Positions 5,521-23,643 of a DNA stretch of 24,053 nt are shown piece after piece. Every line of letters starts with the position of its first letter. Positions within the stretch are counted from its first letter, which is position 1. Source of the DNA: a virus. The notes under the pieces were generated by a model. It was not told the origin of the DNA. It saw only the letters and a program-made list of their open reading frames with translations, and made no database searches. Where the stretch lies: IMG/VR virus record IMGVR_UViG_3300043436_004323, positions 1 through 24,053 of that record, one strand, 5' to 3'. The position numbers and the translations under genes are program-made.

Positions 5521-6837
5521 ATGGGTAGAAAATATATAGGACAGGTAAATAATCACAACTTCGTATATCCAAATTACGAAATGACTGAGTATGATGTAGA
5601 AATTGTACACGATATTAATAACAACTGTATATCAGGTACGGTAACAAGTTTTAGTGCAACCACTATATCAAGTTCAAGTATTACTTTTACTTATAATGGT
5701 TCGTATAATTTTAACGGTGCTGACCCATTTAAAGGTGCTATATTAACACCATTAATAACTGCACCTTATTTATCGGTGCACTGTCAAGTTCCAGGTAATA
5801 CATATATGAACACGTGGAGGGTCGTAGACACAAGAAGTACGACTTATAACCCACCAACTTTACCTACATCAGGTTCGTGGACAGGAGACACATTTACAAT
5901 TACACCTGCAACATTTGGTTTAGCAAGTTTTACAAGTGGTACATATTATTTTGAGTTTAGATTTATAGCTGAAAAATGTTTGTATAAGATTTGTACAACA
6001 TTGAATGTTACTATAACAACTCCAACGCCTACTCCTACAAGAACTGCTACACCTACGCCAACGCCTACTGCAACTGCTACACCAACTCCTACGCCTACTC
6101 CAACTGCAGGACCAATAACAAGTACACCAACCCCAACTCCTACTGCTACTCCTGCACCTGTAGGACAATGTTATTGCTTTCCAATTGTAGTAACAGGTAG
6201 CACATTACCACCACCTGAAGGTGGTGTTATTGCAACACTACAATATAACGATTGTTTTGGTACATTAACTGCACGTGCTTTTACAACAGGACCAGGAACA
6301 TATTATCAGTGCATCCAGGTTATAGATAGTGTGGTTCAATATGACCCAATTGGAACCGAAGGTATAGATGAAAGTTATTTAACATTAACATACTTAACAG
6401 GAAACTGTAATACAGGATATGATTGTTCAGGTTATACTCCTGCGAGTACACCAACCCCAACTCCTACGCCTACAGCTACAAGTGTAGGACCTACAGCAAC
6501 TCCTACTCCTACTCCGACTGCAACAGCAGTTCCACCAACCGCAACTCCTACTCCTACGCCTACGGTTACTCCTACGCCTACTCCAACTGCAACAGTAGAT
6601 TATGATTATTATACTGCGGATGTATTTGATTGTAATGATTGTAGTGCATCAATAGACACTATATTGGTAGCGTTTCCTGCAGGTTCGTCAGTAACAATAA
6701 ATAGATTTTATATACCTGTAGGTGGACCTGATGGTAATTCATATAGAATTGCGGCGTCAGCAAGTCCAGGTATTGCTTTCTTATTAACAACTTCATATGG
6801 TTCATTCACAACTTGTGCATTAGCGTGTGTCGTATAA
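5521..6837 (+). CDS. Multidomain surface/fibre protein with two Pro-Thr linkers
   Basis: This 438-residue protein appears to be three compact domains joined by two low-complexity tethers. Residues 1-165 are a beta-rich domain containing EYDVEIVHDINNN near residue 22. Residues 166-215 are a TPTPT-type linker. Residues about 216-305 are a Cys-rich domain (CYC, then CFG, CIQ, CNTGYDC). Residues 306-359 are a second TPTPT linker. Residues 360-438 are a short domain with CNDC and CALAC. There is no signal peptide, as expected for a virion protein. Its place between the tail hub and tape measure genes suggests a tail fibre or exposed decoration protein. The N-terminal domain probably anchors it and the distal domains may touch the host; this is inference. 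Confidence 0.65.
   Translation: MGRKYIGQVNNHNFVYPNYEMTEYDVEIVHDINNNCISGTVTSFSATTISSSSITFTYNGSYNFNGADPFKGAILTPLITAPYLSVHCQVPGNTYMNTWRVVDTRSTTYNPPTLPTSGSWTGDTFTITPATFGLASFTSGTYYFEFRFIAEKCLYKICTTLNVTITTPTPTPTRTATPTPTPTATATPTPTPTPTAGPITSTPTPTPTATPAPVGQCYCFPIVVTGSTLPPPEGGVIATLQYNDCFGTLTARAFTTGPGTYYQCIQVIDSVVQYDPIGTEGIDESYLTLTYLTGNCNTGYDCSGYTPASTPTPTPTPTATSVGPTATPTPTPTATAVPPTATPTPTPTVTPTPTPTATVDYDYYTADVFDCNDCSASIDTILVAFPAGSSVTINRFYIPVGGPDGNSYRIAASASPGIAFLLTTSYGSFTTCALACVV
6016..6165 (+). repeat. Pro-Thr repeat linker 1
   Basis: About 50 codons of alternating Thr (ACT/ACA/ACG) and Pro (CCT/CCA/CCG) with scattered Ala, written with degenerate codons. The repeat produces spurious open frames in other frames. 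Its length could vary by slippage or recombination. Confidence 0.9.
6436..6597 (+). repeat. Pro-Thr repeat linker 2
   Basis: A second tract of about 54 codons with the same Thr-Pro alternation, broken by short SVGPTA and AVPPTA insertions. It separates the middle Cys-rich domain from the C-terminal domain of the fibre protein. Confidence 0.9.
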
Positions 6838-17872: not shown

Positions 17873-17904
17873 TAAAGGTAGACACTTATATTGTGTCCAC
17901 CAAA
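17873..17904 (-). promoter_or_regulatory. Candidate host-type promoter with inverted repeat in the spacer
   Basis: On the - strand TTTG (17901-17904) is followed after 20 nt by TACCTTTA (17873-17880), matching the Bacteroidota -33 TTTG / -7 TAnnTTTG pattern with one deviation. The spacer contains GACAC (17881-17885) and GTGTC (17893-17897), a possible operator. The box is 20 nt from the ATG at 17853. The -33 part lies in the end of the acetyltransferase gene. Confidence 0.5.
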
Positions 17905-18581
17905 TTTAATTTTGAATAATAATCGTTATACCACTTGTCAATATGAAACTCCATTTCTGCGTGGTCAGAAAGTCGGTTCACCGTATTACCTTTAATTATA
18001 AGTTCTTTACTGCCTGTCTTGTGGTATTTGCTTACTCTAAACCCAAACTTCCTAAAAAACTTGCACTGCAAACTTACCTCGTTAATGTAATATTCAGGAC
18101 CTAATGTGGCGCAGCCAATACAATCCAAATGGATGGGTGGAAACTCACTTTTGTAGGTCTCAAGTAGCAAATCAAAAAAGACACCCATTAACGCAGTACC
18201 ATAACCCTTACCTTGATGTTCAGGGTAAATAGCAAGGTTCTCAAGTTCAATACCATTACCTTTAATACTAATGGTCAACATACCATAATTAGCTACAATA
18301 CGGATGTTACGAGTGACCCTTAATTCCTTATTGAACTTAAAGCGGATATTGGTGTCCCAAAACTGCAGGAACGGATAATCTTTTGCGAATATCGGTAGCT
18401 GTTCAGACAATTGTTGGAACGCCTCATTAGGTTGGATAAACACAAAATGTGAGATGGTGTCAGCAGGATTGTAGCAGAACGGTGGTTCAACCATACATTC
18501 CTTAATCGTAGCAGATTTATCTGCGGTGTACTTGTCCTTCCAAAACTGAATGTCCGAAGGAACGTGTGTGTAGTTTTTCAT
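17886..18581 (-). CDS. GNAT-family N-acetyltransferase
   Basis: 231 residues from the ATG at 18579-18581; an upstream in-frame TTG at 18602 would lie inside the promoter box. Motif A of the GNAT fold is clear: LENLAIYPEHQGKGYGTALM at residues 113-132, with QGKGYG as the acetyl-CoA pyrophosphate loop. A later CKFFRKFGF segment fits motif B (the strand-helix after the conserved Tyr). The N-terminal 100 residues are not typical and may bind the substrate, which cannot be told from sequence. A phage GNAT in an accessory block may modify a host protein, antibiotic-like molecule or tRNA; this is speculation. A strong promoter candidate precedes it. Confidence 0.88.
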   Translation of the reverse strand: MKNYTHVPSDIQFWKDKYTADKSATIKECMVEPPFCYNPADTISHFVFIQPNEAFQQLSEQLPIFAKDYPFLQFWDTNIRFKFNKELRVTRNIRIVANYGMLTISIKGNGIELENLAIYPEHQGKGYGTALMGVFFDLLLETYKSEFPPIHLDCIGCATLGPEYYINEVSLQCKFFRKFGFRVSKYHKTGSKELIIKGNTVNRLSDHAEMEFHIDKWYNDYYSKLNLVDTI

Positions 18582-18599
18582 AACTTTTAATTTAGATTG

Positions 18600-18632
18600 C
18601 AAATATACGACTATTTGTGATATTCCAAAAAA
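18600..18632 (-). promoter_or_regulatory. Candidate host-type promoter of the acetyltransferase gene
   Basis: On the - strand TATATTTG (18600-18607) is an exact TAnnTTTG box, with TTTTTTGG (18625-18632) upstream as a -33 element at a spacing of about 18 nt. The start codon is 19 nt from the box, giving a leader of about 12 nt. Confidence 0.6.
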
Positions 18633-18634
18633 TA

Positions 18635-18994
18635 TTATAAAAACTTATCCACATTTTTTTTATAGAACTTCAACAGGAAATTGTACGATAGCTTTTTAGC
18701 ACTCCTGTAATACTGATTTTCAGGGTTAGTTACCCACTGCAGATTTTCCACCCTATTGTCGTGCCTGATATGGTTAATGTGGTGTACGTCTTCCTTACCC
18801 TCTATTTTAGGAATGAACGCAGCAGCTACCAATCGGTGGACCCGAAGGAACACCTGCTTACCATTTGACCACAAACCAATACGCTTATATCCAAAATCGG
18901 TCTTCAGCTTCAAAATCTTACCAGACAAATTTCGCACACGACCAGCAGTGCTAACCTCGTAGTCGTAACCATCAATCCGTTTCCATTTTTCCAT
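18635..18994 (-). CDS. NUMOD4-HNH endonuclease (free-standing homing type)
   Basis: 119 residues. Residues 3-25 (WKRIDGYDYEVSTAGRVRNL) are a NUMOD4 DNA-recognition motif. Residues 52-95 are an HNH nuclease core: VHRLVAAAFIP, then DVHHINHIRHDNRVENLQWV, with the HH pair, the second His and the Asn visible. Such enzymes cut DNA site-specifically and spread by homing; they are common in phages as insertions between genes. No intron is evident around it. It lies between the acetyltransferase gene and a cluster of terminators, so it may be transcribed by read-through or from a weak promoter of its own. Confidence 0.92.
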   Translation of the reverse strand: MEKWKRIDGYDYEVSTAGRVRNLSGKILKLKTDFGYKRIGLWSNGKQVFLRVHRLVAAAFIPKIEGKEDVHHINHIRHDNRVENLQWVTNPENQYYRSAKKLSYNFLLKFYKKNVDKFL

Positions 18995-21582: not shown

Positions 21583-21804
21583 TTAATTGTTTTTTAATTG
21601 TTTTTGAATGTGATTGGAAAAGTTTTTAAGGTCTTCGTTAGTTGTGTCCCAATTGAAGATAAATTCAGTTAGGATTTGGGATAGTCTGCACACTTCCTGC
21701 ACCGTTGGTTTAACACCTAATAATGCGTACATTTCAATTGCACGTTCCATTTGCGATTGACGGACGATAAGTTCATCCTTGTCTTTTGGACATTTGATAG
21801 CCAT
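21583..21804 (-). CDS. Small hypothetical protein, first gene of the accessory cluster
   Basis: 73 residues and helical (VRQSQMERAIEMYALLGVKP, EVCRLSQILTEFIFNW). It is the promoter-proximal gene of the ten-gene - strand cluster, with an A/T-rich leader (AATTATTAAAAATGG). A possible - strand promoter lies within 21815-21870 but has no exact box. The function is unknown. Confidence 0.7.
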   Translation of the reverse strand: MAIKCPKDKDELIVRQSQMERAIEMYALLGVKPTVQEVCRLSQILTEFIFNWDTTNEDLKNFSNHIQKQLKNN

Positions 21805-21847
21805 TTTTAATAATTTTAATTGTTAATACTAACACTAATATACACAC

Positions 21848-21855
21848 TATATTTG
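21848..21855 (+). promoter_or_regulatory. Candidate + strand promoter box in the divergent region
   Basis: TATATTTG is an exact match to the Bacteroidota -7 pattern TAnnTTTG. A TTG lies 25 nt upstream, longer than the ideal spacing. It reads towards the structured region at 21975-22290 and the gene at 22331. Confidence 0.35.
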
Positions 21856-21974
21856 ACAATAAAAAATGTTGAGGTAAGTATTTATCCACATCCAATTTAT
21901 AACTTCATTTACGAAATGCGGAATTATTTTTAAGACTATTTGGATTTTACGATTTTTTCCCTTATTTATTTTAC

Positions 21975-22290
21975 GTGGGTCACCTGACAGAAAAAGGGTG
22001 ACTATCGCCCTGGAGGAGTTTCAAGATAGCTACGTTAGTCATTTTCCGTACATCAGAAGGGGTCTTATCGGTGGATATACATTACCAACTACGCTGATTA
22101 GTTGAGGAACGTACCGACCACAAAAAAGGTCTTGAGATATAAGTAAGGTATGGGTCAAGGATTGAAGGTCATATAATCAATTTACACTGGCTTTACGAAA
22201 CCTCAGGGGTGTGTTGAGATTTATCTCATTAATCAGTAGGAGAACGAATTATGCCCTGTTGTGAACGCCTGTTGGGATTTGGTTTATTGA
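21975..22290 (+). ncRNA. Candidate structured non-coding RNA or cis element of unknown family
   Basis: This 526-nt intergenic region (21805-22330) has no convincing gene. Its part 21975-22290 is about 40% G+C, while the flanks are much lower. Local hairpins follow each other: 21979-21984/21997-22002, 22003-22006/22025-22028, 22086-22091/22099-22104, a nested pair 22111-22115/22147-22151 around 22116-22119/22128-22131, 22161-22165/22177-22181, and 22215-22219/22224-22228. I compared it by eye with RNase P RNA, tmRNA and group I/II intron cores and found no match. The strand is uncertain; + is preferred because of the upstream box. A replication origin or packaging site is an alternative. Confidence 0.45.
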
Positions 22291-22330
22291 ATTATTTTAT
22301 TTATATTACATTAATACAAACTAATACATT

Positions 22331-22519
22331 ATGGGATGGAAGTACAGGGATAATGAATTATCGTTGAAGGAATTTTATAATCTACCAAAAGAAAAACAGA
22401 ACGACTACATACTACTGGTGCGTGGACTTAAACCTGAGGAAAGAAGTAGTATGGATGAAATATTAATTAATAGATTTGGTGGTAATAAAATAATTAATAC
22501 CTTTACATTAAAAGAATAA
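22331..22519 (+). CDS. Small hypothetical protein
   Basis: 62 residues, charged (KYRDNELSLKEFYNLPKEKQ, then LKPEERSSMDEILINRFGG). It is probably a small helical protein. It is the first gene of the right-hand + operon, with an A/T-rich leader after the structured region. The next gene starts 1 nt after its stop. No family is recognised. Confidence 0.65.
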   Translation: MGWKYRDNELSLKEFYNLPKEKQNDYILLVRGLKPEERSSMDEILINRFGGNKIINTFTLKE

Positions 22520-23580: not shown

Positions 23581-23624
23581 AAGTCCTGCAGGTTGTGCCT
23601 CCCATTCCCTCGCAGGACTTTTTT
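23581..23624 (+). terminator. Intrinsic terminator, or end of a small RNA
   Basis: AAGTCCTGC (23581-23589) pairs perfectly with GCAGGACTT (23612-23620) around a 22-nt loop in which AGG and CCT can form a minor inner stem. Six T follow. It ends the operon at 22331-23520, or an RNA starting near 23553. Confidence 0.85.
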
Positions 23625-23643
23625 AGTTTAAGTAAGTATTTAT

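Follow-up and report, generated by a model that had tools for sequence, protein, structure and literature searches.

A G+C-rich gap between divergent genes in a phage genome raises the question of whether it acts as RNA, as DNA, or through a short protein, and of what it does for the phage. The gap analyzed here lies in a window of 24,053 nucleotides (the whole stretch of viral DNA under analysis, whose coordinates are used throughout). It is bordered on the left by a divergently oriented gene for a 73-residue protein (21583–21804, minus strand) and on the right by a gene for a 62-residue protein (22331–22519, plus strand), both of no known function. Homologues of the left-hand gene lie beside many of the corresponding slots in other phages; the right-hand neighbor genes, used as queries, recovered only the same phage. 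A viral record of 34,785 bases (G001) contains the window and agrees with it exactly over the stretch of interest; an overlapping piece of 3,784 bases is identical as well. G001 encodes a terminase, a portal and an XkdF-type protease. Its terminase has its nearest counterparts in Flavobacterium phage 11b and Cellulophaga phage phi10:1 (41–43% identity), which makes a member of the Bacteroidota the likely host. Elsewhere in the window, an HNH endonuclease gene (18635–18994, minus strand) lies within a leftward module of small genes without known function and adjoins a GNAT acetyltransferase gene (17886–18602). Low-complexity structural proteins encoded at 5521–6837, and at L007:6464–10081, carry proline-threonine and Gly-Ser-Ser/Gly-Thr-Ser collagen-like repeats. 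A terminator-like hairpin at 23582–23626 (AGTCCTGC...GCAGGACT, then TTTTT) precedes an endonuclease-like gene that starts in the last 410 bases of the window.

R1 is a conserved structured RNA

The first-pass annotation had described positions 21975–22290 as gene-free and richer in G+C than the surrounding DNA. Both descriptions hold: the open reading frame list shows no frame longer than 39 amino acids overlapping the stretch, and its G+C content is 42.1%, against 21.8% in the left flank (21805–21974) and 26.1% in the right. The window as a whole averages 34.4%, and an equally high G+C content is reached by 2.4% of its 316-nt stretches. Folding of the single sequence was uninformative on either strand, with energies no better than those of shuffled sequences (minimum free energy −77.1 kcal/mol, z = +1.19; 88 of 100 dinucleotide shuffles fold equally well). 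From the single sequence alone, the claim that the stretch encodes an RNA could not be settled.

Homologues provided the evidence. The first two came from relatives located via the terminase, and two DNA patterns yielded more, giving 12 aligned sequences from which a consensus structure was derived with RNAalifold and inspection. Within this set, 97.9% of cells are paired, 21 pairs show two-sided changes, and none of 500 shuffles matched the covariation score. A covariance model built from the 12 found four divergent, previously unseen members (169–244 bits), all of which keep the structure, and a final scan with a pattern yielded 14 more (155–209 bits). The resulting 27 distinct homologues, all on viral contigs, share 45 pairs in eight helices with 97.6% of cells paired; 28 of the 45 pairs show two-sided changes (16.7 in shuffles), and the covariation score is 0.402, compared with 0.147 for shuffled alignments and at most 0.10 when the partners are slid; none of 500 shuffles did as well. 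A6 and A9, which were aligned by fitting to the model, are biased towards it; A3 was aligned without such fitting. The window itself matches the model with 285.8 bits over 21965–22264. We conclude that this element, R1, is a real conserved structured RNA of related phages with one functional strand. It occurs in a group of phages of about 35 kb, sampled as metagenomic records that are mostly incomplete or lack known completeness.

R1 spans about 284 nt (21974–22257, plus strand), its limits being set by the first pair of the closing helix P0 on the 5′ side and by the last pair of P5 on the 3′ side. In the 5′ domain (21974–22122), P0 (21974–21978 with 22118–22122), which takes GC, AU and CG forms among members, closes around three helices: P1 (21979–21985/21996–22002), whose loop GACAGAAAAA is conserved and in which six of seven pairs vary on both sides, P2 (22007–22010/22060–22063) and P3 (22068–22073/22112–22117). 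A conserved A-rich linker, AAAAAAGGTC (22123–22132; alignments A3 and A5), leads to the long arm P4 (22133–22205), which is built from P4a (22133–22136/22202–22205), P4b (22143–22149/22190–22196) and P4c (22160–22165/22177–22182) and has conserved TATGG and CTGG elements in its internal loops. The 3′ domain (22206–22257) is formed by P5, pairing 22206–22211 with 22252–22257 around a variable interior. P5 is the weakest-supported helix because its changes are mostly one-sided (G-C to G-U). The row of short hairpins read by eye in the first pass was thus right in that the stretch is structured, and mostly wrong in the hairpins themselves. The nested pair proposed at 22111–22151 corresponds to no conserved helix; its bases belong to the 3′ strands of P3 and P0 and to the beginning of P4.

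Across the members, R1 tolerates 216 G·U pairs and only 2 A·C pairs, from which it follows that the plus strand acts as RNA. Palindromes acting as DNA, in an origin or a packaging site, might be expected from the AT-rich flanks, the divergent position and the DnaA-box-like sites described below. The G·U bias marks one strand as RNA, however, and P0 and P4a join distant segments, so we regard a DNA element as very improbable. A translated short gene has next to no probability: members do show chance open frames of 45–90 amino acids, but none exceeds 39 in the window's own region, many helices change in length, and the variation is accounted for by compensatory changes. The open frames in members are short and of varying length, with no conserved protein frame among them. 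Compensatory changes beyond chance on one strand, the general mark of a structured non-coding RNA, are thus present in R1, and covariation over the 27 homologues, the check that the first-pass annotation had proposed, bears out its initial suggestion of a phage-encoded RNA.

R1 is a new family in the sense that it has no Rfam 15 match; an earlier description elsewhere is possible. The Rfam 15 scan, whose families include RNase P RNA, tmRNA, group I intron, 6S RNA and phage pRNA, gave no match at gathering score in the window or in L007. An earlier comparison by eye with RNase P RNA, tmRNA and intron cores had shown no convincing likeness. At E values up to 5, only opuB appeared, with 14.5 bits where 75 are required, which we take as chance. 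No homologue was recovered from isolate phages by nucleotide search, from 72,556 plasmids within the reach of distant blastn, or from 395 Bacteroidia genomes with the RNA model, a set that held no positive control. Ten pattern matches on genome contigs (L088–L097) were dropped as chance because they come from unrelated phyla and include a single model match of 13 bits. A covarying RNA family without an Rfam relative is valuable in itself.

Promoter-like boxes around R1

Immediately upstream of R1, TTTGG (21939–21943) and TATTTAT (21963–21969) form a promoter-like element on the plus strand (21939–21969) that resembles the Bacteroidota sigma-A −7 consensus, TAnnTTTG (PMC9723704). A second promoter-like TATTTAT (22298–22304, plus strand) lies between R1 and the next gene at 22331. 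Of 22 members, 17 have a box of this kind (TATATTTAT, TATTTAT and similar) no more than 28 nt before R1 (3.7 expected), and 18 have one in the 90 nt that follow R1 (3.2 expected); these are motif matches judged against a simple mononucleotide control, and the accepted set of boxes was picked after viewing the sequences. The genes downstream of R1 differ among members, and in L166 R1 is directed away from the sigma-like operon.

These arrangements bear on whether R1 is the leader of a rightward early operon, altering its transcription in cis. The put RNA of phage HK022 is the obvious precedent, since it lies behind a promoter where the early genes begin and acts on their transcription (PMC9378689). 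Like put, R1 is a structured RNA located close to the beginning of an early region, directly behind a promoter-like box. However, put is a cis-acting antiterminator, whereas R1 is flanked on either side by an independent promoter-like box and the gene after it varies. Because of these flanking boxes and the orientation in L166, we consider a leader role improbable. With a box of its own upstream and another ahead of the next gene, R1 is probably a separate RNA gene, and its standing as an autonomous, exchangeable cassette is well supported.

The R1 members without an upstream box (L072, L080, L165, L172 and L176) are preceded by a different structured element with terminator-like hairpins. This element, present about 120 nt upstream in L080, L165, L163, L172, L176, L164 and L167, has a long-range helix (e.g., ACCACAAGCC/GGCTTGTGGT), a terminator-like hairpin (GGAGAAC/GTTCTCC) followed by a T-run, and a third helix ending TTTTTTTT directly before R1; the pairs of the element covary between members.

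Occupants of the slot in relatives without R1

Through the neighboring sigma-like protein, 80 loci were collected. Where R1 is missing, its slot mostly holds a small protein gene, and half of the 22 such cases match phage replication-initiator families. The initiator-like proteins are those of L020 (phrog_2562, 4e-27); a cluster comprising L022, L103, L114, L132 and L151 (phrog_2880 at 1e-11, 428, 270 and others, for L022, L132 and L151); a second cluster, L130 and L141 (phrog_4707, 3e-19 for L130); L110 and L057 (phrog_11233, 2e-15); and, weakly, L147 (HTH_36). The rest have no known role and belong to DUF6291 (L014, L037, L043, L109, L116 and L157) or to an unnamed family, A7 (L024, L128, L142, L143 and L161), both counted as slot proteins by judgement. 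Profile comparison of A7 with the L020 initiator gave no match, a PDB search with DUF6291 returned nothing credible, and structure predictions for two slot-protein families (mean pLDDT 41 and 61) were too poor for searching. A sub-threshold HTH_36 match in G399 (19.8 bits against 25) lies, judging from its coordinates, inside an endonuclease-like gene beside the sigma-like gene and was rejected as an initiator.

Five relatives (L028, L030, L107, L113 and L153) have neither R1 nor a slot protein and carry other conserved non-coding elements instead. In L028 (6085–6280) and L030 the slot holds another non-coding island rich in G+C, whose two copies are 88.6% identical; L113, L107 and L153 share a non-coding sequence (ACTTCAGGTAAACTCCTGTTGGAT...TTTTTTTACCCAGCA in L113, with close variants in the others). 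A second structured RNA of about 105 nt, unrelated to R1, lies just before slot-protein genes (L116:6228–6335, plus strand; also L110, L103, L114, L130, L132, L141, L143, L147, L151, L157 and L161, and further L014, L037 and L020). It is on the minus strand in L128, L142 and L071, and in L071 it precedes another gene. An 8-bp long-range helix, with two-sided changes in six of its eight pairs, joins two of its loops, and its 3′ hairpin is terminator-like; there was no gathering-level Rfam match in the loci scanned. This RNA is possibly an attenuator.

On the tree of the neighbor protein, R1 requires 10 changes. Eight independent pairs on well-supported branches differ in R1, and R1 and a slot protein never occur together. 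Over 200 random pairings, the slot protein ran opposite to R1 in a mean of 7.6 of the 8 pairs and agreed with it in no pair (sign test, p ∼0.008); when only firm initiators count, a mean of 3.7 pairs are opposite and no pair agrees (p = 0.125). A version of the tree test restricted to rows with R1 or a firm initiator was left uncounted, as it is exclusive by construction. Among whole records, a slot protein is found in 0 of 9 with R1 and 11 of 16 without (Fisher p = 0.001), and a firm initiator in 0 of 9 and 5 of 16, respectively (p = 0.12). The nine R1-bearing records, most of unstated completeness, contain no initiator of the families searched; phrog_428 is absent from 12 further R1-bearing records, and a DnaB helicase was found in 0 of 22 records. 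These observations strongly suggest that R1 is exchanged for small protein genes, of which about half encode recognizable replication initiators.

Mutual exclusion in one slot is expected for any two cassettes, whatever their role. It speaks for a shared function here only because initiators make up many of the alternatives and none turned up elsewhere. The best argument against a swap of position alone comes from two sister loci: in L142 a slot protein lies on the minus strand behind a leader RNA, and in L071 that leader is retained, R1 is present on the plus strand, and the minus-strand slot protein has been lost.

A candidate role in replication

R1 may do an initiator's job, since relatives that lack it often carry an initiator gene in the same place. 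Our tentative reading, to which we give somewhat less than an even chance, is that R1 initiates or primes replication in the way of ColE1 RNA II, without being related to it. R1 would be transcribed rightwards from its own promoter, ending before that of the next gene, and would fold into the 5′ junction domain, A-rich linker, long arm and 3′ stem. With R1 in place of the initiator, host proteins alone would suffice to start phage replication. The simplest route would have the transcript open and prime an adjacent origin, by an R-loop or as a primer in the manner of ColE1 RNA II; alternatively, R1 could recruit host initiation proteins. The wider proposal, that a tailed-phage lineage using the host replisome has repeatedly swapped an initiator protein for a structured RNA and back, through a cassette that passes among otherwise similar phages, is plausible but more tentative still. 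If true, it would represent a natural protein-for-RNA swap in the control of DNA replication that recurs within one phage group.

Precedents exist for the mechanism. ColE1 encodes no initiator, and a non-coding RNA opens its origin and primes synthesis (PMC5043065). The proposed likeness lies in a structured, host-transcribed non-coding RNA doing the work of an initiator protein. However, R1 has about 285 nt as opposed to more than 550, matches RNA II neither in sequence nor through Rfam, has no demonstrated counterpart of the antisense RNA I, and has a primer function that is putative. A ColE1-type origin has a structured transcript with a promoter of its own ahead of the origin, and its primer arises when RNase H cuts a persistent RNA-DNA hybrid; for R1, the observation bearing on the promoter is the promoter-like box seen in 17 of 22 members. 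Because no sequence relation was found, we do not class R1 as a ColE1-type member. Bacteriophage T4 differs in encoding its own replisome. T4 R-loop origins are phage origins opened and primed by a transcript (PMC3016281). This resembles the role proposed for R1, but those origins offer no conserved RNA family that R1 matches. The GOLLD and ROOL RNAs are known from phages among other places. Like R1, these RNAs (treated together with OLE in PMC12286853) are ornate and non-coding; R1 is smaller, structurally distinct and without an Rfam match.

Origin-like signals cluster at the slot. The DnaA-box sequence TTATCCACA lies in the divergent gap at 21882–21890 (plus strand), 92 nt before R1, and is one of two exact copies in the 34.8 kb of G001. 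TTWTCCACA occurs 5 times within 200 nt before R1 in 15 loci (0.09 expected) and 8 times within 330 nt before slot proteins in 18 loci (0.24 expected), with 0 of 300 shuffles as good in either case; these counts are not independent because some loci are close relatives, and matches are absent from most loci. GC skew tracks gene strand and was set aside as evidence for an origin. Of the two roles first suggested besides an RNA, replication is thus the one to which the initiator swap and the DnaA-box-like sites point, and nothing points to packaging.

The same slot can be read differently, as a recombination hot spot at which exchange is positional and R1 is a trans-acting RNA with another job, such as host takeover, counter-defence, or control of RNA polymerase or ribosomes. 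The separate promoter-like boxes of R1 and the next gene fit this account, as do the unrelated RNAs and function-unknown proteins that also occupy the slot and the five relatives with neither R1 nor a slot protein. DUF6291 and A7, half of the slot-protein set, have no demonstrated role in replication and count against the replication reading. We nevertheless consider a trans-acting RNA with another job unlikely, though worth serious weight: about half of the alternatives are recognizable initiators, R1-bearing records have no initiator of the searched families elsewhere, and the DnaA-box-like sites cluster at the slot. The preferred reading, in which R1 acts in replication, is directly testable in close pairs that differ in cassette and have a near-identical neighbor protein (L148/L147, L055/L024 and L071/L142). 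A further motif, TTTACGAAATRCGGAA, lies after the DnaA-box-like site and ahead of the R1 promoter; it is conserved in the window (21909–21923) and in the sequences upstream of R1 in L055, L084 and L099.
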